NCBI GenBank assembly: GCA_004332195.1
Contig: SJBG01000002.1
Location: 62,001 to 126,000, forward strand
Direction: 5' to 3'
DNA: 64,000 bases
Source of the DNA: Desulfobulbaceae bacterium
GTDB taxonomy: Bacteria > Desulfobacterota > Desulfobulbia > Desulfobulbales > Desulfurivibrionaceae
The notes below the pieces were generated by a model. The model was not told the DNA's origin. It saw only the letters and a list, made by a program, of their open reading frames with translations, and did no database searches. Below are positions 4,379 to 16,065 of the stretch, piece after piece (the first letter of the stretch is position 1; every line of letters begins with the position of its first letter). A program made the position numbers and the translations under genes.

Positions 4379-5440
4379 TCACCCCACCAGCTTCCAGCTA
4401 ACTACGGTTCCGCGCTTTACATCTCTCTTTACGCTCTTGCCAAGGAGGATATCGTAATATTTAGGCGATAGGCCAGGGCCCGGCCGAATTGCTCTTAAAT
4501 TTTCTTTTGTAAAAACATCGCCTTTTTTCATATCCTGCACGATATAGAGCGAACGGCGGAAGATGAGTGATTTTTTCTCATTTTCTGTGGGACCGTAGCT
4601 TATTTTGCCTAATGCCTGCCATGCCCTTTCGGTTTCGACAACCAGGGAGCGCATCTCATCCGGCTCCATGGAAAAGGCTGAATCCACGCCGCCGTCTGCG
4701 CGGCTTAATGTAAAATGCTTTTCAATCATTGTTGCGCCAAGCGCGATAGAAGCTACGGCCGCGCCAATGCCCATTATATGGTCGGACAGGCCAATCTGGC
4801 AGTCGAACAGTTTAGCCATATGGGGGATGGTGAGGATGTTTGTGTTTTCCGGTGTTGCCGGATAGGAACTGGTGCATTTGAGTAAAATCAGATCCCTGCA
4901 TCCTGCTTCACGCGCTGTGCGCACTGTTTCATCCAGTTCCGCGATTGTTGCCATGCCGGTTGAAATAATCATCGGCTTTCCCGTGGCCGCAACTTTACGT
5001 ATCAACGGAATGTCCGTGTTTTCAAATGAGGCGATCTTATAGCAGGGAACATCAAGTTCTTTCAGAAAATCAACCGCTGTGTCGTCAAATGGTGTGCTAA
5101 AACCTACTAGCCCCAGCTCTTTGCATCGGTTAAAAATCGGCCTGTGCCACTCCCACGGGGTGTATGCCTCTTTGTAAAGATCATAAAGGGATCTGCCCTT
5201 CCACAGGCTGTCCGGATCATTGATAAAAAATTCTTTTTCAGCAATATCAAGGGTCATGGTATCGGCTGTATAGGTCTGGAGCTTTACGGCATGTGCCCCT
5301 GCTTTGGCAGCAGCCTCAACGATCGCCAGCGCCCGGTCAAGCGACTGGTTATGGTTGCCGGACATCTCGGCTATGATGAATGGCGGATGGTTGGAGCCAA
5401 TTTTTTTATCAGCGACACTAATTTCATTTTCACGGTTCAT
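4379..5440 (-). CDS. pseI: Pseudaminic acid synthase PseI
   Basis: PseI condenses 2,4-diacetamido-2,4,6-trideoxy-L-altrose with phosphoenolpyruvate to pseudaminic acid. The 353-residue protein has the NeuB-type TIM barrel (IIAEMSGNHNQSLDRA, HAVKLQTYTADTM, CYKIASFENTD, IISTGMATIAELDE, IEKHFTLSRADGGVDSAFS) and a C-terminal SAF domain (RRSLYIVQDMKKGDVFTKENLRAIRPGPGL). The wording of these blocks fits PseI better than sialic acid NeuB. The start at 5438-5440 gives the usual length. It is the last gene of the minus-strand pse locus and follows a remnant of the PseG C-terminal acetyltransferase. Confidence 0.92.
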   Translation of the reverse strand: MNRENEISVADKKIGSNHPPFIIAEMSGNHNQSLDRALAIVEAAAKAGAHAVKLQTYTADTMTLDIAEKEFFINDPDSLWKGRSLYDLYKEAYTPWEWHRPIFNRCKELGLVGFSTPFDDTAVDFLKELDVPCYKIASFENTDIPLIRKVAATGKPMIISTGMATIAELDETVRTAREAGCRDLILLKCTSSYPATPENTNILTIPHMAKLFDCQIGLSDHIMGIGAAVASIALGATMIEKHFTLSRADGGVDSAFSMEPDEMRSLVVETERAWQALGKISYGPTENEKKSLIFRRSLYIVQDMKKGDVFTKENLRAIRPGPGLSPKYYDILLGKSVKRDVKRGTVVSWKLVG

Positions 5441-5454
5441 CTATCAGGCTCTCT

Positions 5455-5730
5455 TCATAGGTTATGTGATGCACGGATTATCTGCGTTCCAATTCCATAA
5501 CTCTTAATGCCTGGCACATTATAAATCGAAATTACCGCTAACCGCCCGTCAATATCATAGCGAAGCACACCGGCAGATCTTCCGCACAGTTCGGCAATTA
5601 ATATCTGTCGGTTAGGGTTTTCAAGGCTTTCCATGAACCATCTACGATGTTCATCCAATAAAATCGGTCCAGAATTAAAAATATGCCTCCGTGTTTCTTC
5701 AGCGTTACGCCACTTATAAATGGATTAGCA
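5455..5730 (-). pseudogene. GNAT acetyltransferase remnant (3' part of broken pseG/pseH)
   Basis: Reading one minus-strand frame from about 5730 gives KWRNAEETRRHIFNSG, DEHRRWFMESLENPNRQ, then ILIAELCGRSAGVLRYD and a truncated VPGIKSYGIGTQII tail. The WRN...EEHRRWF...G.LRYD pattern is that of the GNAT domain (PseH-like) that is often fused to the C-terminus of PseG in Desulfobacterota-type clusters. There is no start codon of its own in a good context, and the C-terminus stops short of a complete GNAT fold. The matching PseG N-terminal part lies 5 kb upstream (10798-11139). I read this as the separated 3' end of one ancestral gene; the fusion itself is inferred. Confidence 0.7.
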
Positions 5731-5900
5731 ATCAAGGTCTGACGGCGAAGCTCTGGAACCTTCAGCGTCACTTCGCCCGCCTTGGTGGGCAGTCCCCGCT
5801 GGTAGTGGCCGGCTCGGGGGTCGGTGCGCGCCGCATGGCGCTGGTATTTCTCCACATTGCACAGCCGATCTGCTTTCGTGACCACGTTCGGTGCATTTTC
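5731..5900 (-). mobile_element. IS256-family transposase remnant
   Basis: A minus-strand reading contains CNVEKYQRHAARTDPRAGHY followed by QRGLPTKAGEVTLKVPELRR, the conserved N-terminal region of IS256/Mutator transposases. Only about 50 residues remain; both the DDE catalytic core and the termini are missing. It sits exactly at the join between the GNAT remnant and the AT-rich cassette, so it may mark how the cassette arrived. Confidence 0.75.
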
Positions 5901-6617
5901 TCATGACCGGTGACAAAAAGGAAGTATTTGTTCAATATCAGTAACAATTTTAATGTCAAAATCTGGTTTTGTTCTCTCTAAATTAGGTAATTGGCTAAAC
6001 CGCCCGGTATGAACCCGTGTCGTCCAAGCGCCTAATTTCTTTGCAGCCCCTATATCATTGATGGGGTGATCGCCAATAATCATGGTATGATTAGCAGGTA
6101 TATTGAAGTAATCTAATGCCATAGCATAGCCTTTTGTATCCGGTTTTGGAGCACCGATTTCCCAACAGTATACAACATAATCTACTAATTCTTGTAAACA
6201 TAGTGCTTTAACTTTATTGGTTTGTGTTTCTGTCGCACCATCAGTGACAACTGCTAAATAAAAGTTCTTGTGTAGCCGTTTTAATAATGATTTCACTCCT
6301 GGATAAAAGGCAATATCAGCTGAGTGTTGACGGTAAAGCTGAACTAAACGAGCAATTTCGTCAGGTGTATCAATCAAGCCAAAGTGCTTCAATGTAGCAT
6401 TGAATATCTTACCACGCCCCTTTTTATAAAATTCTTCCAACAAATAATTAAAAACAATTTCTTTTTTAATAGTTGCAGTTTTGGCAATATCTGCAGCAAC
6501 AGCATCAAATCCGCTAAGGACAAAATTTTTTTCTTCAAACAGGGTATCATCCAAATCAAAGACAATAACCTCTATAGTATTGTTCGGATTCAGATGGCTG
6601 GGCTTTTTAAAACTCAT
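5901..6617 (-). CDS. HAD-superfamily hydrolase
   Basis: A 238-residue HAD phosphatase, subfamily IA by layout. Motif I is VFDLDDTLFEEK (residues 19-30), motif II VVTDGATETQTNK, motif III GAPKPDTKGY and motif IV IIGDHPINDIGAAKKLG, so all catalytic residues appear intact. Base composition is clearly more AT-rich than the flanking core genes. It is the last gene of the cassette that splits pseG, 36 bases after the TylF-type methyltransferase gene, and runs into an IS256 remnant. Substrate unknown; a sugar phosphate is likely from context only. Confidence 0.85.
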   Translation of the reverse strand: MSFKKPSHLNPNNTIEVIVFDLDDTLFEEKNFVLSGFDAVAADIAKTATIKKEIVFNYLLEEFYKKGRGKIFNATLKHFGLIDTPDEIARLVQLYRQHSADIAFYPGVKSLLKRLHKNFYLAVVTDGATETQTNKVKALCLQELVDYVVYCWEIGAPKPDTKGYAMALDYFNIPANHTMIIGDHPINDIGAAKKLGAWTTRVHTGRFSQLPNLERTKPDFDIKIVTDIEQILPFCHRS

Positions 6618-6653
6618 AATGTCTTTGTCAAGGCACGCATAGAATTTGCTTTA

Positions 6654-7394
6654 TTACTCAATGACTATGTAAGAGCATAAAGGATTCAGATGATTACGCC
6701 TGATAGCGTATTTGTCCAACCCAAAAACTTCTTTTAACGCCAAGGTTTCCCCAGGAAACTCAGGACAATTTAGTTCATCAAAAGCAACAACACTTCCTTT
6801 AGTCAAACATCCTCTTATGGCTTCAAGGCAAATTTTTGTTGGTTGATATATGTCAAAATCAAAATAAGCCAATGCAACTATCGTTTCGGGATGTTCTTCA
6901 AAATACTTCCCAATCGTTTCTGCCGCATCACCTTCAATAATTTCATATTTTCTTTTGTGGGAAATAGGGCTTTCTGCTTCGTGATAATCAAGTATTTTAT
7001 TTAAATATTTTAGATATCCCTCAGAAACAGCGTAGTCACCTTTTCCGATATAACTACCATCTTTTTGGTTATCAATCCTTGGAAAACCGGAAAATGTATC
7101 AAACCCTACAATCTTTCTGTTATAGTTGTAGGGTTCATACATACCTCGAAATGATTCAAAAAGAGCGAGATTTTGGCCCCACCGCACACCGAATTCTATA
7201 ACGATGCCATGCACATTAATAATTTTTTCATATAATTGATGCATGAATAAAATTCGGGATAAGGTTTGTCTATTTAAATAAAGACCAAGATTGCTTAAAA
7301 GTTCACTATCTGGAATAGGAGTATCTCGAAACAATTCCAAGAATTCTTCTCGCTTCTGAATTTCCGCTTGCGATGAACCAGATAAAACTTTCAT
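6654..7394 (-). CDS. TylF/MycF-family O-methyltransferase
   Basis: A 246-residue SAM-dependent methyltransferase resembling macrocin O-methyltransferase TylF. Visible blocks are IEFGVRWGQNLALFESFRG (SAM site), IVGFDTFSGFP, IIEGDAAETIGKYFEE, YFDFDIYQPTKICLEAI with the metal-binding Asp residues, and VVAFDELNCPEFPGET. Family members methylate sugar hydroxyls in a metal-dependent way, and homologues occur in surface polysaccharide clusters. AT-rich, like the rest of the cassette. The sugar substrate cannot be told. Confidence 0.82.
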   Translation of the reverse strand: MKVLSGSSQAEIQKREEFLELFRDTPIPDSELLSNLGLYLNRQTLSRILFMHQLYEKIINVHGIVIEFGVRWGQNLALFESFRGMYEPYNYNRKIVGFDTFSGFPRIDNQKDGSYIGKGDYAVSEGYLKYLNKILDYHEAESPISHKRKYEIIEGDAAETIGKYFEEHPETIVALAYFDFDIYQPTKICLEAIRGCLTKGSVVAFDELNCPEFPGETLALKEVFGLDKYAIRRNHLNPLCSYIVIE

Positions 7395-7427
7395 TTCCTT
7401 TTTCCCCTTACTTTTTAAAAACCACGA

Positions 7428-8306
7428 TTATATTGGTTTGAAAAAACCTATGAGTTCCCGTCCCAAACCTAATTCTGCAATTGCCTCGTATACTTTTATC
7501 GTTTTCTCAGGTGAGAGACGGTGCATAAAATTCTCAATTTCAACCCTGCTCCGGTGACAAGATTTGCCAACACTTTTCTTTTCAATATAATTAGTGTTTT
7601 TATTTACAAGGTTAAAATCAATCGGATAATCAGCTATAACTCTTTTACATTGAAAACCCGCCTCACGACATAAATTAATCAGCCCATTTTTATTGAAATA
7701 AGAGAGATGATCAGGATACGCAATCCAAAATGATTGAGAAATATATTTCTGCTCAAGAAGATAGTTTTGCATGGCAGAGAAATCATTAGGCACCTCAATA
7801 ACTAATACCCCCCCCTCGTCAATCAATTCTCTTGTACTACTTAATAAAGAAAGCGGATTGATAACATGTTCCAAAACATTATCTAATAAAATGACTGAAT
7901 ATCTCTTTTTTTTTACTATCAACTTATTCAGATTCTCATATATGTCACCAACTAACATATCAGCCAAACAGCTATCATGGTATTTTTTACAACCGAATTC
8001 ACTATAATCCAGACCAGCGCAATGCCAGCCTTGCTTTTTAAAAAAGTCTAATGCCCAACCTTCACCGGCTCCAACATCTAAAAATGTCTTAAGCAGATTA
8101 CTTCCCAGTAATTCATTGATAATGATATGTTTTTGCGATAGTTTGTTCTTAAAATATAAGATCTCATCCTCTGAATAAGATTTTTCATAGCTACCATGTG
8201 CCTCTTGATAGTACTTTTCGGCATAATAGTTTTTTAACTCTTCCAGCGTTGGTTTATTAATAATTTCATAAAAGCCAAACCGATTTTTAAAAACTCTTTT
8301 ATCCAT
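7428..8306 (-). CDS. Class I SAM-dependent methyltransferase
   Basis: Start is ATG at 8304-8306, overlapping the end of the upstream SDR/ATP-grasp gene by 8 bases (ATGGATAA); the open frame extends further upstream but inside that gene. The protein (about 292 residues) has a Rossmann SAM motif TFLDVGAGEGWALDFFKKQG, a LLDNVLEHVINPLSLL motif and a C-terminal HLSYFNKNGLINLCREAGF segment typical of methyltransferase_23-type enzymes in polysaccharide loci. The tight overlap points to translational coupling with the fusion gene. Substrate unknown. Confidence 0.82.
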   Translation of the reverse strand: MDKRVFKNRFGFYEIINKPTLEELKNYYAEKYYQEAHGSYEKSYSEDEILYFKNKLSQKHIIINELLGSNLLKTFLDVGAGEGWALDFFKKQGWHCAGLDYSEFGCKKYHDSCLADMLVGDIYENLNKLIVKKKRYSVILLDNVLEHVINPLSLLSSTRELIDEGGVLVIEVPNDFSAMQNYLLEQKYISQSFWIAYPDHLSYFNKNGLINLCREAGFQCKRVIADYPIDFNLVNKNTNYIEKKSVGKSCHRSRVEIENFMHRLSPEKTIKVYEAIAELGLGRELIGFFKPI

Positions 8307-10215
8307 TGATAACAATATCCTCTGGGAATCTAATTTGTACTTTTTCAGTTTTTGAACGTAAAAACGGGTATTCTTGAATATCAACCCCCAGGCTTTCGAG
8401 TAAAAACCAGTAAAAGCTATCCAGCCCGGCAGCCAAACTCAGTGTTGATGCTCCACCGAAACGGCTATTGCACTCTATGATATGAAAGGCACTTGTTTCA
8501 TCAATGATGACTTGCAAAAGTATATGGCCATAAAATGACATGTTTCCCACAAAATCAGCACATAATTGTTCCAATTTTTCATTTCTAAAAGTTGACGTTA
8601 TTTGTGACTCACCGTTGATAATTGTATCCCGTTTTCTCGCAACCATGCCTTTTATCTTGCCGGTTTTGGAAATGTAAATATCGATACTAGCCTCTTTGCC
8701 TTTAATGTAAGGTTGAAATACAGGATATTCCAACCTCCCTGCTTGCCTAATGGCCTGAGCTTTATCTAAGTTTATTCCCATATGATGTGAACCAGCGCCA
8801 TAGCGTTCTTTAACGACAAAACTATCACAAGGAGTCAACAATTCGAGTTGATCCGTTGTCGTAACCACCGGCAATCCTACTTGATGAAATTTATCGAAAA
8901 AAGCTAATTTATTCATACAAAGCGCCACGCTGTTTAAATCAGAAACCATCACATGGACATTATGGGCAGCCAGTTTTGTTTTTATTCTAGAGAAAAAAGT
9001 CAATTCGCCATCTCGCGTTGGAATAATGCAACGAATATTATTTTGCTGGCAATACGCTAATAAGTCATCTTCCGTTAATTTAGAAACCGGTGGCATAAGC
9101 CAAAAATCATCCGTAAAATATTTTCCGATACAGGCTGAGTCTATATCACCACCATAAATTTTTATACCCGGCAATATTTTTTGAGCAGCTTTTCGCACAC
9201 TTTTAAGTAAAGGCATTTTGCGTGATATGCTTGTCACTAATATGTTGAAAGTTTCAGGTTCAGCTCCAGACACTCTAAACTGATTCTTTTTTTCGTATTC
9301 AATAATTTCCGGGATCGTATCCTCTAACTGACGTTGTGGCTTCCATCCCACCAGATTGTAAAAATGATCCATATTGGCTTGCGAAGCTTCACACTTAATA
9401 TGAGAGTCAACCTCAACAGTTTTCATGTGAGGAAAGTGTTTTTTCAATATTTCTAATATCTCGGTAACTTTTCTTGCGTTATCATTGCCTATATTAACAA
9501 TTCCATTGACGTTGTGCTTTAAAGCTAAGCGCATCAAACCTTCTGCGACCTCATCCGCATAGATGTAGTCAAACATACCCTCTTTAGCATAAACAGTTAA
9601 GGTTTCGTCATTTAACAAGGAACGAATCCAGCGGGAAATAACATCGCGGGAATTTCTGCCATAACTGCGGTAAATGCGCGCGGAAATAACTTGGAATTTA
9701 TCTTGTTTGAATTCACCAAGGAATTTAAGTTCAATTTCATGATTCAACTTAGCGCTACCGGTCAAGTTGCGCGGGTAAATCCTATCATCTTCTTTAAGAC
9801 GATAAGCCTTGGCAGTTGGTTGGGGGAAAGTATACAGCTGTGGATCATAAATAAGATAACTGGATGCAAAAATCACCTTTTTTAGCGATTTCATATCCTT
9901 GAGCAGTGTTATTAAGTGGTTGCTCAAATTTACATTATGCTGAAAGTTCTCTTCCCAAAATTCATAAGTTTCATTTGAGCGCTCGAAGGTGGCTGCCAAA
10001 TGAAAGAAAAACGTCGGCGCAAAGGATTGCAATTCGTCTTTGGTGATAAAATTAAGATCCCCCTGTCGATAGATAATATCTTTGGACCAATGGTTTGGCC
10101 TTGGTTTTAAATCACCAACATATAGAATTGCACCTTGCTGATGTAATCTTTCAACCAAAGCATTGCCAATTACACCATTGCCACCGCTAACAAAAATTCG
10201 TTGTCCTTTAAGCAT
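8299..10215 (-). CDS. Two-domain fusion: SDR (NAD epimerase-like) plus ATP-grasp ligase
   Basis: A 638-residue protein. Residues 1-315 form an extended SDR domain with GGNGVIG at 11-17 and FHLAATFERSNETYEFW. The usual YxxxK is replaced by TGSAK, so the catalytic Tyr seems to be missing although the Lys is kept. Residues about 325-638 form a CarB/PylC-like ATP-grasp domain, with FVVKERYGAGSHHMG, FQPYIKGKEASIDIYI and IIECNSRFGGAS as ATP- and metal-binding blocks. ATP-grasp enzymes join a carboxylate to an amine or thiol through an acyl-phosphate. The start overlaps the GNAT stop by 8 bases (ATGCTTAA). A role in attaching an amino acid or similar group to a sugar is inference. AT-rich. Confidence 0.85.
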   Translation of the reverse strand: MLKGQRIFVSGGNGVIGNALVERLHQQGAILYVGDLKPRPNHWSKDIIYRQGDLNFITKDELQSFAPTFFFHLAATFERSNETYEFWEENFQHNVNLSNHLITLLKDMKSLKKVIFASSYLIYDPQLYTFPQPTAKAYRLKEDDRIYPRNLTGSAKLNHEIELKFLGEFKQDKFQVISARIYRSYGRNSRDVISRWIRSLLNDETLTVYAKEGMFDYIYADEVAEGLMRLALKHNVNGIVNIGNDNARKVTEILEILKKHFPHMKTVEVDSHIKCEASQANMDHFYNLVGWKPQRQLEDTIPEIIEYEKKNQFRVSGAEPETFNILVTSISRKMPLLKSVRKAAQKILPGIKIYGGDIDSACIGKYFTDDFWLMPPVSKLTEDDLLAYCQQNNIRCIIPTRDGELTFFSRIKTKLAAHNVHVMVSDLNSVALCMNKLAFFDKFHQVGLPVVTTTDQLELLTPCDSFVVKERYGAGSHHMGINLDKAQAIRQAGRLEYPVFQPYIKGKEASIDIYISKTGKIKGMVARKRDTIINGESQITSTFRNEKLEQLCADFVGNMSFYGHILLQVIIDETSAFHIIECNSRFGGASTLSLAAGLDSFYWFLLESLGVDIQEYPFLRSKTEKVQIRFPEDIVING

Positions 10216-10777
10216 GTTGATGTTCCTTTAAAAAACCATGTAATAATGAATCTACAAATTTTCCTTTAATCATAACATGTTGTCTCATTCTTCCTTCAAA
10301 GCGGAATCCATTTTTTTCAAGAATGGAAATATGCTCCTGACGAAACGCATAGGTTTCGGTAAATATCCGATTAAAATCTAAACCATCGAACACCACTTTT
10401 TTCATGAATATAATGAAGAAACTGAACTCCATCTCGTACAATGCAGGATCGGTCGCTCTTTTTGTATCTAACAAAAACGAAAGTTCTGCACGTTTCGATA
10501 ACCACTCGATATTGGTCAATCCGCCGTAGCCAATACAACGGTCACTGTACAGGTAGCTAAAGAGAATGATTTTGGGATTCACTTGTGAAAAACTCGGGAC
10601 TACATCATCTTCATAATAACTGAGCTGTTCTTGGTCTGTTAACAGTTTCTTCTGACGTAAAATAGTCATTTGCTCATTACGCCATTTTTTTATGAAAAAA
10701 ATATCCTCTTTTCTTATTGGAACAATAGAATATTGTTCCATTTTATAAGTATTGTTGCTTAATATACAGTAGTCCAT
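10208..10777 (-). CDS. GNAT-family N-acetyltransferase
   Basis: A 189-residue RimJ/RimL-type GNAT: IVPIRKEDIFFIKKWRNEQM at the N-terminus, then SDRCIGYGGLTNIEWLSKRAELSFLLD (the acetyl-CoA fold core) and FNRIFTETYAFRQEHISILEKNGFRFEGRMRQH. PseH-type and other amino-sugar acetyltransferases share this layout. It lies directly beside the pseG break, so it could supply the N4-acetyltransferase (PseH) activity lost with the GNAT remnant at 5.5 kb; this is inference. First gene of the AT-rich cassette. Confidence 0.82.
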   Translation of the reverse strand: MDYCILSNNTYKMEQYSIVPIRKEDIFFIKKWRNEQMTILRQKKLLTDQEQLSYYEDDVVPSFSQVNPKIILFSYLYSDRCIGYGGLTNIEWLSKRAELSFLLDTKRATDPALYEMEFSFFIIFMKKVVFDGLDFNRIFTETYAFRQEHISILEKNGFRFEGRMRQHVMIKGKFVDSLLHGFLKEHQHA

Positions 10778-10797
10778 TTCTTAGACTCAAGATAAGT

Positions 10798-11139
10798 AAC
10801 CTAAAGGGCGTAATGATCGATGATAGGCCAGTCTGCAGGGTCTTTTAATCAAGAGAGAAGGGCCATGGTTTGCTCAAAATCCGTCTGCCAGTCAGTACCA
10901 AGCCACGCAGAATGTTTTAAGTTGGTCTCAGCATCCTGCGCTGGCGCATCAGATACGGGAAGACGATGAACAATATAGCCTTTCTCTTCAATATAACCGC
11001 AGAGGTTTCCGGTAAACTCACGGCAGACAAAGATCGCTTCAGCGCCTCGCTCACGCAACTCGTCTGCAAGGGTGAGGCAGCGCATGACATGACCTGTGCC
11101 GATCTGAACTGAGGCGTCTACCCTGATTAGGATTTTCAT
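10798..11139 (-). pseudogene. pseG: PseG N-terminal remnant (UDP-sugar hydrolase)
   Basis: From ATG at 11137-11139 the frame reads MKILIRVDASVQIGTGHVMR, CLTLADELRERGAEAIFVCR, which is the diagnostic PseG start with the catalytic GxGHxMR motif, and GTDWQTDFEQTMALLS. A TGA then interrupts (10849-10851), and the same frame continues LKDPADWPIIDHYAL, the conserved D-H-Y region of PseG, until TAG at about 10798. The remaining two thirds of PseG are absent here. PseG removes UDP to give the substrate of PseI, so pathway output would need another copy or a bypass. Confidence 0.85.
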
Positions 11140-11143
11140 GTGC

Positions 11144-11443
11144 TTACAGCTCAGCGTAGGCATCTCTGTCTAAAAATGGAAATTGAATGCCTACATGGGG
11201 AGACGGCAAGAGTTTTTCTTTGCAACTTATTTCTGATTCAAAGAGCGGGTCAACCAGGGAGTCTATATATTTGGCCACCTTTCCATATATAATCCTGTAA
11301 AAACATTTTGTGCAAACATTGGCCGGGATTCATATTACCTCTACTTCCAGATCAACGCCCTCCCTTTTGTAGTTCAGGTTGATCAATTTTGCCTCCATTT
11401 TCCCACCGCACTCAGGACACTTTCTTTTCTTGATCAAAGCCAT
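11144..11443 (-). pseudogene. YgiT-type zinc-finger (antitoxin-like) gene with in-frame TGA
   Basis: ATG at 11441-11443 opens MALIKKRKCPECGGKMEAKL, a CxxC zinc knuckle of the YgiT/MqsA N-terminal type. After VDLEVEVI the frame meets TGA (11330-11332) and then continues without a shift as IPANVCTKC...RIIYGKVAKYI for the rest of a 99-codon frame ending at TAA 11144-11146. VCTKC is the second CxxC, so the TGA cuts the zinc site in half. It starts 4 bases after the DUF4258 gene ends, the order usual for DUF4258/YgiT modules. Confidence 0.7.
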
Positions 11444-11447
11444 GATT

Positions 11448-11783
11448 TCACCTTTTTATTTTTCTGACTTTGCACTTGATCCAATATCTGCTATTCGGCA
11501 CATACGAAGTTACAATGACCGGTTCTTCCCAAAAAGAGTAATCAACAACAATATGAACCGGCAATTTATCTTCTTTTAATTCAGCTTATATCAACACCCT
11601 TTTTCGATCAATATATTTCTCAATGACCTCACCACTTATAGCTACCCACTCCAACTTTTCAACTGTACGGGGAACAATTCCATCCTTTCGAGCCTCAATA
11701 ATTGCGTGGTCGCTAATGGCATATTCACCATCGATGAACCGCTTCCTGATATATTCAATATCAACCAAGTCTCTGTTTTCCAA
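11448..11783 (-). pseudogene. DUF4258 (toxin-like) gene with in-frame TAA
   Basis: The frame opens VDIEYIRKRFIDGEYAISDH, AIIEARKDGIVPRTVEKLEW, typical of DUF4258 proteins that pair with YgiT zinc-finger proteins. An in-frame TAA at 11586-11588 interrupts after RVLI; the frame then continues AELKEDKLPVHIVVDYSF...IVTSYVPNSRYW to TGA at 11448-11450. Full length would be 111 residues. Members are predicted RelE/MqsR-like toxins; that activity is family inference. Both genes of the pair carry a single nonsense codon. Confidence 0.7.
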
Positions 11784-11814
11784 ATTAACCAGTCCCTAAT
11801 CTCGAATCAACAAA

Positions 11815-12534
11815 TCATCCTGTAAAGCTTTTATCCATCTGCAAGACCGAATACATTTTTTCGGCTGTTTTCCAGTCTTCAGGCGTATCAATATCCTGCA
11901 CCAGATAACGTGGCAAAATAACAGGGACGGCATCTTTTGAATAAAATTGTTTTTCTTTCAGATATTTTTTTGCATTTGCCCAATAAAATTGCCCTGCGTC
12001 GTGATAAGCTTCCGGTAAGTCCTGCGAACGTTGTTCCCTATATTCCGGCCAGAACATTTCCAACCGATTTTGGTTGTTTATTTTCAAGGAACGAAAAATC
12101 GGAAAAGGATAAGTCGTTACGGAAAAACAGGATGTTGCGTTATTGTCGCGTAATATGTTATAGCCTTTAATTATATATTCAGCCTTAACAAAAGGGGCTG
12201 TAGCATAGATACAGCAGATATAATCTATCTCTTCTCCATCTTCCGTAAGTTGCTTTAAAGCATGGAGAATGACCGCATCCGTGCCGACAAAATCATCCGC
12301 CAGCTCCGCTGGCCGTATAAAAGGAACCTCGGCGCCAAACTCTTTTGCTATAGACGCGATTTCTTTTGAGTCGGTGGAAACAATTATTCGATCAAAAATA
12401 CCAGCATCTTTTGCAGCTTCAATAGAATGGACAATTATCGGCTTGCCGCAAAATGATTTAATGTTTTTATGCGTGATTCTTTTGCTTCCGCCTCTGGCAG
12501 GGATAACAGCAATGACTTTATTGTTATTGATCAT
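11815..12534 (-). CDS. pseF: Pseudaminic acid cytidylyltransferase PseF
   Basis: PseF activates pseudaminic acid with CTP to CMP-pseudaminic acid. The 239-residue protein has the nucleotidyltransferase loop VIAVIPARGGSKRITHKNIK, then FDRIIVSTDSKEIASIAKEFGAEVPF, SCFSVTTYPFPIFRSLK and EAYHDAGQFYWANAKKYL, the PseF pattern. Length is normal. It is followed on the same strand by the DUF4258/YgiT remnants and pseG, and is separated from pseC by a perfect palindrome. Confidence 0.92.
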   Translation of the reverse strand: MINNNKVIAVIPARGGSKRITHKNIKSFCGKPIIVHSIEAAKDAGIFDRIIVSTDSKEIASIAKEFGAEVPFIRPAELADDFVGTDAVILHALKQLTEDGEEIDYICCIYATAPFVKAEYIIKGYNILRDNNATSCFSVTTYPFPIFRSLKINNQNRLEMFWPEYREQRSQDLPEAYHDAGQFYWANAKKYLKEKQFYSKDAVPVILPRYLVQDIDTPEDWKTAEKMYSVLQMDKSFTG

Positions 12535-12669: not shown

Positions 12670-12723
12670 AACGAACTAAGAGTTTTGGCGGCGGCTTCGC
12701 GCCGCCAAAACTCTTAGTTCGTT
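12670..12723. repeat. Perfect 24-bp palindrome at the end of pseC
   Basis: Arms at 12670-12693 and 12700-12723 are exact reverse complements with a 6-base GCTTCG loop. The right arm includes part of the pseC stop codon. There is no T-run after the stem on the pseC (minus) side, so it is not a standard intrinsic terminator; it may slow or end transcription, protect the 3' end of pseBC mRNA, or be a small inserted palindromic element. Confidence 0.8.
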
Positions 12724-13954
12724 AACAATCTCCATTTCTGTAATGGTGAATAACTGTTTGCATTGTTTTAATCACCTTTTCCACATCTGCATCCGTCATC
12801 CCCGGAAACATCGGAATAGAAATAATCTGTTCATAAGCCGCTTCAGCTATGGGGAATAGGCCGGCGCCGGTATGATATTTTTCCCTGTAAAACGGGTGCA
12901 GGTGTACGGGTATATAGTGAACGTTTACGCCTATGCCTTTTTCCTGCAGTTTGGCAAAAAGAGAATTTCGATCGATGCCCAGAACGTTTGAATCAATCCT
13001 GATCACATAAAGATGATATGCATGGTTAGAGGGCCTGGAGCGTGGGGCGTGGAGCGCGAATTGTTTGGCGGGCAAGACGTCGGCGCGGAGCCCGAGAGGT
13101 TCTATTCCGGGGATGTCCGCTAAAGCTTCGTCATATAAGGCCGCTATCTCACGCCTGCGCTCCAGAAACTTTGGCAGCTTTCGCAACTGGGAAATGCCGA
13201 GAGCACACTGGAAGTCAGTGATGCGGTAGTTATAGCCAAGATCAACCATCTCGTAAAACCATGAGGAATCGGAGGCCGGAGGTCGGAGGGCAGAGGACAG
13301 AGGGCTAAAGCACTTAGGGTCGCGGGTAATACCATGGTTTCGGAAGATCCTCATGCGATTGGCATAATCGGCATTATCTGTGGTGATCATTCCACCTTCT
13401 CCGCTAGTTATGTGCTTTACGGGATGAAAACTGAATATGTTAAGATCAGCAAGGAAACCCACTTTTTTACCTTTGTATTCAGCGCCCAAGGCATGGCATG
13501 CATCGGCTACCAAAACAAGGTTATTTTTGTCAGCGATTTTTCTCAGGGAATCATAATCGCACGGGTGTCCCGCGTAATCTACTACTGTAATTGCTCTGGT
13601 ATTTAACGTAATTTTCGATTCAATCTGCTCAGGATCAAGCAACAGGGTATCGGGTTCTACATCGGAAAACACCGGTGTGGCGCCTTGATAAACGACACAA
13701 TTGGCTGTGGCGGCGAAGGTAATGGGGGAAAGGATGACTTCATCACTGGGATTGATGCCAATGGCGTACATGGCACAGTGCAGGGCAGCAGTGCCACTAC
13801 TTACAGCTACGGCATATTTTGCGCCCACATAATCCGCAATTGCCTGTTCAAATTCCACCACTTTTGGACCGGTGGTGAGCCAGTCGGAGCGAAGGACTTC
13901 TGTGACGGCCCGGATATCGTCTTCATCAATAAACTGTCTACCGTATGGAATCAT
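12722..13954 (-). CDS. pseC: UDP-4-amino-sugar aminotransferase PseC
   Basis: PseC is a PLP-dependent DegT/DnrJ/EryC1 aminotransferase that aminates C4 of the PseB product. The 410-residue protein starts MIPYGRQFIDEDDIRAVTEV, has VAVSSGTAALHCAMYA, the DACHALGAEYKG region and SFHPVKHITSGEGGMITT with the PLP Lys. Two in-frame low-complexity inserts stand out: one encoded by a polypurine tract at 13264-13309 (PLSSALRPPASDSS), the other near 13029-13060 (APRSRPS). Both fall in surface-type regions away from the active-site motifs. pseB ends 4 bases upstream. Confidence 0.92.
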   Translation of the reverse strand: MIPYGRQFIDEDDIRAVTEVLRSDWLTTGPKVVEFEQAIADYVGAKYAVAVSSGTAALHCAMYAIGINPSDEVILSPITFAATANCVVYQGATPVFSDVEPDTLLLDPEQIESKITLNTRAITVVDYAGHPCDYDSLRKIADKNNLVLVADACHALGAEYKGKKVGFLADLNIFSFHPVKHITSGEGGMITTDNADYANRMRIFRNHGITRDPKCFSPLSSALRPPASDSSWFYEMVDLGYNYRITDFQCALGISQLRKLPKFLERRREIAALYDEALADIPGIEPLGLRADVLPAKQFALHAPRSRPSNHAYHLYVIRIDSNVLGIDRNSLFAKLQEKGIGVNVHYIPVHLHPFYREKYHTGAGLFPIAEAAYEQIISIPMFPGMTDADVEKVIKTMQTVIHHYRNGDC

Positions 13955-13958
13955 GAAA

Positions 13959-16065
<2,107 letters not shown>

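Follow-up and report, generated by a model that had tools for sequence, protein, structure and literature searches.

A low-GC SDR/ATP-grasp cassette that probably replaces two steps of pseudaminic acid biosynthesis

The cassette described here comprises five genes on the minus strand of the window, the 64,000-nucleotide stretch of a Desulfobulbaceae genome that was analysed; a check of the open reading frames confirmed all five at the positions given by the initial annotation. In the order of reading, they encode a GNAT-fold protein from a subfamily without the acetyl-CoA P-loop (10208..10777; PF13420, 66 bits), a 638-residue fusion (8299..10215) of an extended SDR lacking the catalytic Tyr (residues 1 to about 316) to an ATP-grasp enzyme of the PRK12767/2PN1 type (about 323-638), the SAM methyltransferase MT1 (7428..8306; Methyltransf_23, 74 bits), which starts with the ATG at 8306, with a longer alternative frame opening at a TTG at 8384, a TylF-like methyltransferase (6654..7394), and a HAD phosphatase-like protein (5901..6617). 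The domains named in the initial annotation are borne out by Pfam for the GNAT, SDR, ATP-grasp, methyltransferase, and HAD proteins, but the TylF label is weak: the window protein has no Pfam match to the TylF O-methyltransferases (PF05711), its Thiolinea orthologue scores 18.3 bits against a cut-off of 23, and the orthologues of this protein were identified by sequence identity. The first three genes do overlap by exactly 8 bases each, at 10208-10215 (GNAT and fusion, ATGCTTAA) and 8299-8306 (fusion and MT1, ATGGATAA). Short overlaps of this kind are a common form of translational coupling and their exact length is nothing special; that between the GNAT and SDR genes varies among relatives, and it was dropped as a clue. 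No RNA element was found in the region at the Rfam gathering level, and phage carriage is unsupported, the viral scan giving no matches and phage records containing generic SDRs only.

Pseudaminic acid (Pse) is a sugar of bacterial surfaces. In the canonical pathway of its synthesis, PseB and PseC produce UDP-4-amino-4,6-dideoxy-L-AltNAc, PseH acetylates its N4, PseG removes UDP, PseI condenses the sugar with PEP, and PseF adds CMP. The cassette is embedded in a locus of this pathway, also encoded on the minus strand, where pseB (13959..14933; TIGR03589, 533 bits), pseC (12722..13954; TIGR03588, 484 bits), pseF (11815..12534; TIGR03584, 326 bits), and pseI (4379..5440; TIGR03586, 511 bits) all score above their equivalog cut-offs. 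The two remaining steps are represented by remnants on the same strand, which flank the cassette on either side. That of pseG (10777..11163) covers the first 100 or so of 280 residues (TIGR03590, model positions 1-101), gives tblastn matches to intact PseG proteins, and contains in-frame TGA and TAG stops; its 91 bits, from a match that is not full-length, fall short of the 153.55-bit cut-off. The pseH remnant (5467..5733; TIGR03585, 38 bits; tblastn E 1e-7) is truncated and has one internal TAA, retains the WRN...H motif and the YGIGT P-loop, and is abutted by a fragment of a Mutator/IS256 transposase at about 5740-5885 (PF00872). The GC content of the cassette is 33-38%, versus 48-50% for the remnants, pseI, and pseC, and the cassette is probably a low-GC, mobile element that replaces two standard Pse steps. 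These flanking genes and remnants, absent from the initial annotation, change the interpretation of the cassette.

The SDR half (9262..10215; Epimerase family, 73.7 bits) was studied in a 17-member alignment and by comparison with ordinary extended SDRs (PF01370). It has the NAD-binding motif GGNGVIG (residues 11-17; GG[NA]GVIG is invariant in 17/17), D35, S118-S119-Y120, and K156, with T152 at the position of the catalytic Tyr. The TGSAK reported earlier in place of YxxxK thus holds and is more than a local mutation, since the Tyr is absent from all 17 aligned proteins (6 Thr, 11 Cys), and an eighteenth member, from locus L125, has Thr as well; Y120 and the Lys of the motif, K156, are retained in all 17. 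The Asn of the substrate-binding RxxNxYGP motif and the Arg of RDF are replaced by R183 and F215; with these canonical phosphate-binding residues altered, binding of a UDP-sugar by this domain is only putative. AlphaFold models have low confidence around residues 121-157, and their pocket is not reliable enough for the catalytic residues to be placed. In the family alignment, the SDR half is 55-63% identical to the window protein, versus 40-53% for the ATP-grasp half.

The ATP-grasp half (8299..9252, residues about 322-638) exceeds the gathering scores of PF02655 (43 bits) and PF15632 (49 bits). It keeps the ATP and metal residues, as was noted initially: K436, K469, E581, N583, R585, G587, and G588 are invariant, including the E.N..FGG metal site. 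Its closest relatives in sequence and fold are the PRK12767 ATP-grasp proteins and PDB 2PN1 (E 1.2e-26); however, 2PN1 is unfused, and all PRK12767 equivalog cut-offs are missed (at best 145 versus 390 bits). Formation of an amide bond is our best guess for this domain. The HAD protein (HAD_2, 92.9 bits; DxDxT motif as VFDLDDT) is the constant partner of the ATP-grasp, adjoining or near it in most loci. The GNAT protein, encoded immediately upstream of the SDR half in every locus seen, scores 24.9 bits with the PseH model TIGR03585, below its cut-off of 93.1, and the RxxGxG acetyl-CoA P-loop of GNATs at the PseH position is absent from 17/17 members. The methyltransferase genes are optional riders of the cassette: MT1 orthologues (42-53% identity) occur in Thiolinea, Ignavibacteria, Bacteroidia, the Bacteroidota genome G858, and loci of the family of Cohnella, and orthologues of the TylF-like protein (59-69%) in loci L056, L095, L097, L100, L102, L103, and L125.

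Orthologues of the fusion, about 50-55% identical, were found in five further phyla, in one of them as a split version, which rules out a chance or local fusion; nor is the fusion characteristic of the lineage to which the window belongs, with 0 of 97 relatives and 0 of 395 genomes of the phylum having it. The same GNAT gene accompanies the fusion every time, as do the HAD and PseI genes wherever the contig is long enough, and the order GNAT, SDR/ATP-grasp, HAD, PseI is conserved in Pelosinus, Thiolinea, Cohnella, Ignavibacteria, and two Bacteroidota genomes. The genes thus travel together across phyla, and the neighbourhood check proposed at the outset gives no refutation. In a Chlamydiae MAG the SDR and ATP-grasp halves are separate genes with the GNAT gene in between. 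Generic solo SDR and ATP-grasp matches (21-31% identity) are distant and were set aside; the ATP-grasp/HAD pairing is visible among them.

PseG and the GNAT-SDR pair are mutually exclusive in their distribution. None of the 17 other genomes that carry the pair has a PseG above the cut-off anywhere in the genome, and it is improbable that one was missed, as a low-threshold search gave only 19-36-bit matches, nearly all of them with the model's C-terminal half. In the family of Cohnella, PseG is present in 0/10 genomes with the fusion versus 64/68 of the PseI genomes that lack the fusion (Fisher p 8e-10, computed ignoring phylogeny); three PseG-like genes of divergent sequence and a fusion locus that has decayed account for the exceptions. 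Six further genomes have the ATP-grasp and HAD genes without the SDR or this GNAT, and all six have PseG alongside, and in their clusters the PseH position has no GNAT; locus L034, from the window's own phylum, shows the same pattern of ATP-grasp and HAD without SDR and with PseG. On the tree of ATP-grasps, those of PseG-type loci nest within those of the fused type. On the PseI tree, the fusion, PseG, and canonical types are intermixed, with 9 label changes on all branches but only 3 independent swaps on strongly supported ones (sign test p 0.25); this intermixing indicates that the sugar is probably the same.

We consider it reasonably likely that the cassette represents a variant of the middle part of the Pse pathway, spread by horizontal transfer, in which the ATP-grasp and HAD proteins stand in for PseH and the GNAT-SDR pair for PseG. 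On the basis of the replacement genetics, the Tyr-less SDR probably does the work of the missing PseG. The genes themselves, the loss of the SDR Tyr and the GNAT P-loop throughout the family, the swap pattern, and the flanking remnants are direct observations, from which we infer the individual enzymatic steps, the nature of the acyl group, and how hydrolysis would proceed. The ATP-grasp half and the HAD protein would attach a non-acetyl acyl group to N4 by an amide linkage, the acid perhaps coming from a phosphorylated precursor; the two methyltransferases, where present, would methylate this acid, and a methylated glyceroyl or aminoacyl group would be our guess. The GNAT-SDR pair would then provide the free sugar for PseI, one possible route being a transient, NAD-dependent oxidation of C3 followed by loss of UDP through elimination, hydration, and a final reduction, with Y120 and K156 as candidate acid and base. 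That the SDR might bind its sugar instead of oxidising it, as suggested earlier, is possible but is not the reading we prefer: the better conservation of this half and its mutual exclusivity with PseG suggest an active, essential role. More tentatively, the SDR together with the P-loop-less GNAT may constitute a new class of NAD-binding, SDR-fold nucleotide-sugar hydrolases that took the place of the GT-B-fold PseG on several occasions in different phyla, the ATP-grasp fusion coupling N-acylation to UDP release. We know of no precedent for a nucleotide-sugar hydrolase of the SDR fold. If this is true, PseG, long regarded as the one hydrolase for its step in nonulosonic acid synthesis, has an unrelated counterpart in several phyla, and the lack of PseG would no longer mark a genome as incapable of Pse synthesis; a non-redox job would possibly be added to the SDR fold, and enzymes for N-acyl variants of Pse would be gained.

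The initial annotation proposed an amide-linked, methylated modification of a nucleotide-activated or CMP-linked sugar. The Pse pathway now supplies such a sugar, with amide formation still the best guess; an added decoration of a complete pathway does not hold, since in all places with the full cassette PseG and PseH are either missing or degraded, which argues for replacement of the canonical steps. A reading close to the original one, that the cassette only tailors Pse made by the full pathway, with UDP removal and N4-acetylation by enzymes encoded elsewhere, would suit the ATP-grasp, HAD, and methyltransferase proteins, and other GNATs are abundant elsewhere in these genomes. We regard it as quite unlikely, however, given the genome-wide lack of PseG in all 17 other genomes with the pair and its broken state here, the adjoining PseG retained by the ATP-grasp-only relatives, and the PseG and GNAT genes beside PseI in canonical loci of the same family.

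The preferred replacement of PseG exchanges one gene for two and leaves the GNAT without an obvious role, which counts against it. The GNAT-SDR pair may instead alter the sugar, for example by epimerisation, to yield a different nonulosonic acid, with UDP removal left to an unlinked enzyme for which PseG cannot substitute. The fold, that of sugar epimerases and dehydratases, and the intact NAD motif speak for such a role; yet the close intermixing of fused-type and PseG-type PseI points to a shared substrate, the catalytic Tyr of sugar SDRs is absent from all members, and no extra hydrolase gene is conserved among the loci examined, making this unlikely, if somewhat plausible. It is also conceivable, though we find it very improbable, that the UDP-sugar is cleaved by a nucleotide pyrophosphatase encoded elsewhere and the 1-phosphate then removed by the HAD protein, with the SDR half as an inactive binding scaffold. 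The HAD gene is indeed constant in the cassette, and a Tyr-less SDR could serve as a binding module, but the same HAD is found in 6/6 PseG-containing ATP-grasp loci and so does not track the loss of PseG, and of the two halves of the fusion the SDR is conserved more strongly.

As initially supposed, no pathway with this exact gene set was found in the literature searched. The CMP-Pse5Ac7Ac pathway of C. jejuni and H. pylori consists of PseB, C, H, G, I, and F (PMC7910423); it shares the PseB, PseC, PseF, and PseI equivalogs with our locus, and Pse remains the likely core sugar, whereas PseH and PseG are only remnants here, PseG is missing in the relatives, and the ATP-grasp/HAD and GNAT-SDR proteins are present instead. 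The product is probably destined for flagellin, because the relatives' loci adjoin flagellin and Maf-like genes and a Maf-type glycosyltransferase is encoded in this genome. Several flagellin systems bear a partial likeness to the proposal and serve as precedents for it. According to the sections of the C. jejuni 11168 report cited here (PMC3068675), flagellin of this strain carries di-O-methylglyceroyl-pseudaminic acid, a methylated acyl group amide-linked to Pse and thus of the product type predicted here; in contrast to our proposal, the acyl group is on N5 and depends on the aminopeptidase-like Cj1295, and those sections describe no ATP-grasp/SDR fusion. In C. difficile type B flagellin, the carbamoyl-phosphate-synthase-like ATP-grasp CDR20291_0245 is required for an amide-linked cap, but the sugar of this peptidylamido-glycan is Fuc3N rather than Pse, the enzyme belongs to Pfam 13535 (ATP-grasp_4), and no SDR fusion is described (PMC5207246, PMC5207245). 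The sfmABCDE operon of Shewanella oneidensis likewise places an ATP-grasp (SfmE) and a methyltransferase in a flagellin nonulosonic acid locus; unlike here, SfmE is of the ATP-grasp_4 type without an SDR fusion, the operon contains no HAD gene, and the glycan has a separate unit of 236-264 Da (PMC3765264).

The five open reading frames of the cassette (window 5901-10777, minus strand) have the order, strand and two 8-base overlaps described in the initial annotation, and its domain calls were upheld, apart from the TylF label, which is weakly backed. The genomic setting was absent from that account: pseB, pseC and pseF lie upstream of the cassette and pseI downstream, each above its NCBIfam equivalog cut-off, and thus the locus is a pseudaminic acid (Pse) locus. 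The steps of the Pse pathway are known, and UDP must come off before PseI acts (PMC7910423). The cassette, initially proposed to be a new glycan-tailoring one, is real and conserved, and makes a more interesting case than that proposal: it forms an alternative middle part of the Pse pathway and includes a candidate for a new type of UDP-sugar hydrolase. Directly upstream of pseB is an IS630-like transposase in two overlapping frames, an HTH part and a DDE_3 part (14959-15998, minus strand).

The full SDR/ATP-grasp fusion was recovered by a genome scan at 50-55% identity in two Pelosinus genomes, Thiolinea (Gammaproteobacteria), an Ignavibacteriae MAG, Cohnella (Bacillota) and a Bacteroidia MAG, and whole-genome searches added nine further fusions in Cohnella's family and a second Bacteroidota genome; a Chlamydiae MAG has the two halves unfused, and its genes run ATP-grasp, GNAT, SDR. 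Every full-length locus has the neighborhood of P-loop-less GNAT, fusion, HAD and PseI, with other genes interposed in a few. Not every locus carries the methyltransferase MT1 or the TylF-like gene; all five genes also occur together in Thiolinea, locus L095 of Cohnella's family and Bacteroidota genome G858. Judged by reading translations, flagellin and Maf-like genes adjoin several loci of Cohnella's family, and the window's genome encodes (L126, 6047-8953) a Maf-type glycosyltransferase of 968 aa that contains TPR repeats and is a candidate for transferring Pse to flagellin. Neither the window's own relatives nor its phylum sample yielded the fusion, which fits horizontal arrival, and the cassette is probably mobile. 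The window's assembly, rated complete, has 1.66 Mb, against 2.8-3.1 Mb in two near-complete congeneric genomes.

PseI scored above the cut-off in 78 of 297 genomes of Cohnella's family. Among these, PseG is present in none of the ten with the full fusion, whereas 64 of the 68 others have it (Fisher's exact p = 8e-10, genomes counted regardless of relatedness). Three of the four exceptions carry divergent PseG-like genes (77-88 bits), and the fourth has a frameshifted fusion and a broken PseI; this decayed locus (L105, genome G703), with no PseG in the genome, is a natural knockout of the pathway. Outside the family, PseG was not found in the remaining genomes of the first scan or in G858. In six genomes a close relative of the ATP-grasp half occurs and the SDR half is missing; each of the six clusters includes PseG and lacks a GNAT at the PseH position. 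Locus L034, from the window's phylum, shares this arrangement (PseG, PseI, MT1, ATP-grasp, HAD). The pattern indicates that the PseH-position GNAT gives way to ATP-grasp and HAD, and that the P-loop-less GNAT and the SDR half are the unit exchanged for PseG. Together, the GNAT, fusion and HAD very probably stand in for both PseG and PseH. Three further Pse loci of Cohnella's family with divergent PseG (L117, L118, L119) also lack a PseH-position GNAT and resemble further independent PseH replacements; a WbqC-like protein is present in L117 (Pfam) and, by eye, a comparable one in L118, and L119 has an unrelated ATP-grasp_4.

In the window, between pseF and the GNAT gene, lies the first third of pseG with in-frame stops (10777-11139, minus strand; 91 bits, model positions 1-101 of 280), and between HAD and pseI a broken pseH-like GNAT gene (5467-5733, minus strand). 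Canonical loci of other bacteria run PseG-GNAT-PseI. GC content is 33-38% in the cassette genes, against 48-50% for pseI, pseC and both remnants, and the cassette frames are intact, unlike the flanking remnants. Most simply, these features would reflect insertion of a low-GC cassette between the pseG and pseH of a canonical locus, followed by decay of both genes. At the cassette edge, a Mutator/IS256 transposase fragment (5740-5885, minus strand) abuts the pseH remnant and may mark how the cassette came in or decayed. Between pseF and the pseG remnant, two small frames of 39% GC with one in-frame stop each (11164-11814, minus strand), by eye a DUF4258-type and a YgiT-type zinc-finger protein, are possibly a decayed toxin-antitoxin-like pair.

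Fusion, PseG-with-ATP-grasp and canonical types do not separate in the PseI tree: the fusion-type label changes nine times, and strongly supported branches force only three of these changes; on such branches, 3 of 3 independent pairs run in the expected direction, a number too small for significance. This closeness of PseI sequences argues for a single six-carbon substrate shared by the fusion and PseG routes. In the ATP-grasp tree, PseG-type proteins of Cohnella's family are nested among fused ones (support 86-97), which suggests that the SDR half was lost together with the gain of PseG.

The cassette GNAT and the SDR half are both atypical throughout the family. All 17 cassette GNATs carry other sequence where PseH-position GNATs have the acetyl-CoA P-loop, and none of 17 aligned SDR halves has the catalytic Tyr of YxxxK (Thr in six, Cys in 11). 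Lys156, Ser118, Ser119, the NAD motif GG[NA]GVIG and Asp35 are invariant, as is Tyr120, where the ordinary extended SDRs compared have other residues, often Glu; Arg183 replaces Asn of RxxNxYGP and Phe215 replaces Arg of RDF. Conservation is higher in the SDR half (55-63% identity to the window) than in the ATP-grasp half (40-53%), and the closest folds to the SDR half are NAD-dependent sugar epimerases. Structure models are weak around residues 121-157, so nothing is inferred from the pocket. The closest fold for the ATP-grasp half is 2PN1; ATP-grasp enzymes are carboxylate-amine ligases.

The replacement pattern and the sequence changes are shown directly; we infer that the ATP-grasp/HAD pair would attach a group other than acetyl to N4 (N7 of Pse) through an amide bond, that the methyltransferases would methylate this group, and that the P-loop-less GNAT and SDR would release the sugar from UDP. 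Hydrolysis by the SDR half itself is proposed tentatively. Speculatively, an NAD-binding SDR could act as a hydrolase by NAD-dependent oxidation, elimination, hydration and reduction, the route of GH4 and GH109 glycosidases. For the acyl part there are precedents in C. jejuni, with di-O-methylglyceroyl Pse (PMC3068675), in Shewanella, with SfmE (PMC3765264), and in C. difficile, with the ATP-grasp protein CDR20291_0245 (PMC5207246). Literature on ATP-grasp with nonulosonic or pseudaminic acid, mostly outside subscription journals, yielded these precedents or unrelated work and no description of the cassette.

The pairing of a PRK12767-type ATP-grasp with HAD is found again alongside 4-amino-sugar genes in polysaccharide-type clusters (loci L035-L051 and plasmid loci L031-L033), with a formyltransferase in two cases, and resembles a general module for N-acylating sugars.
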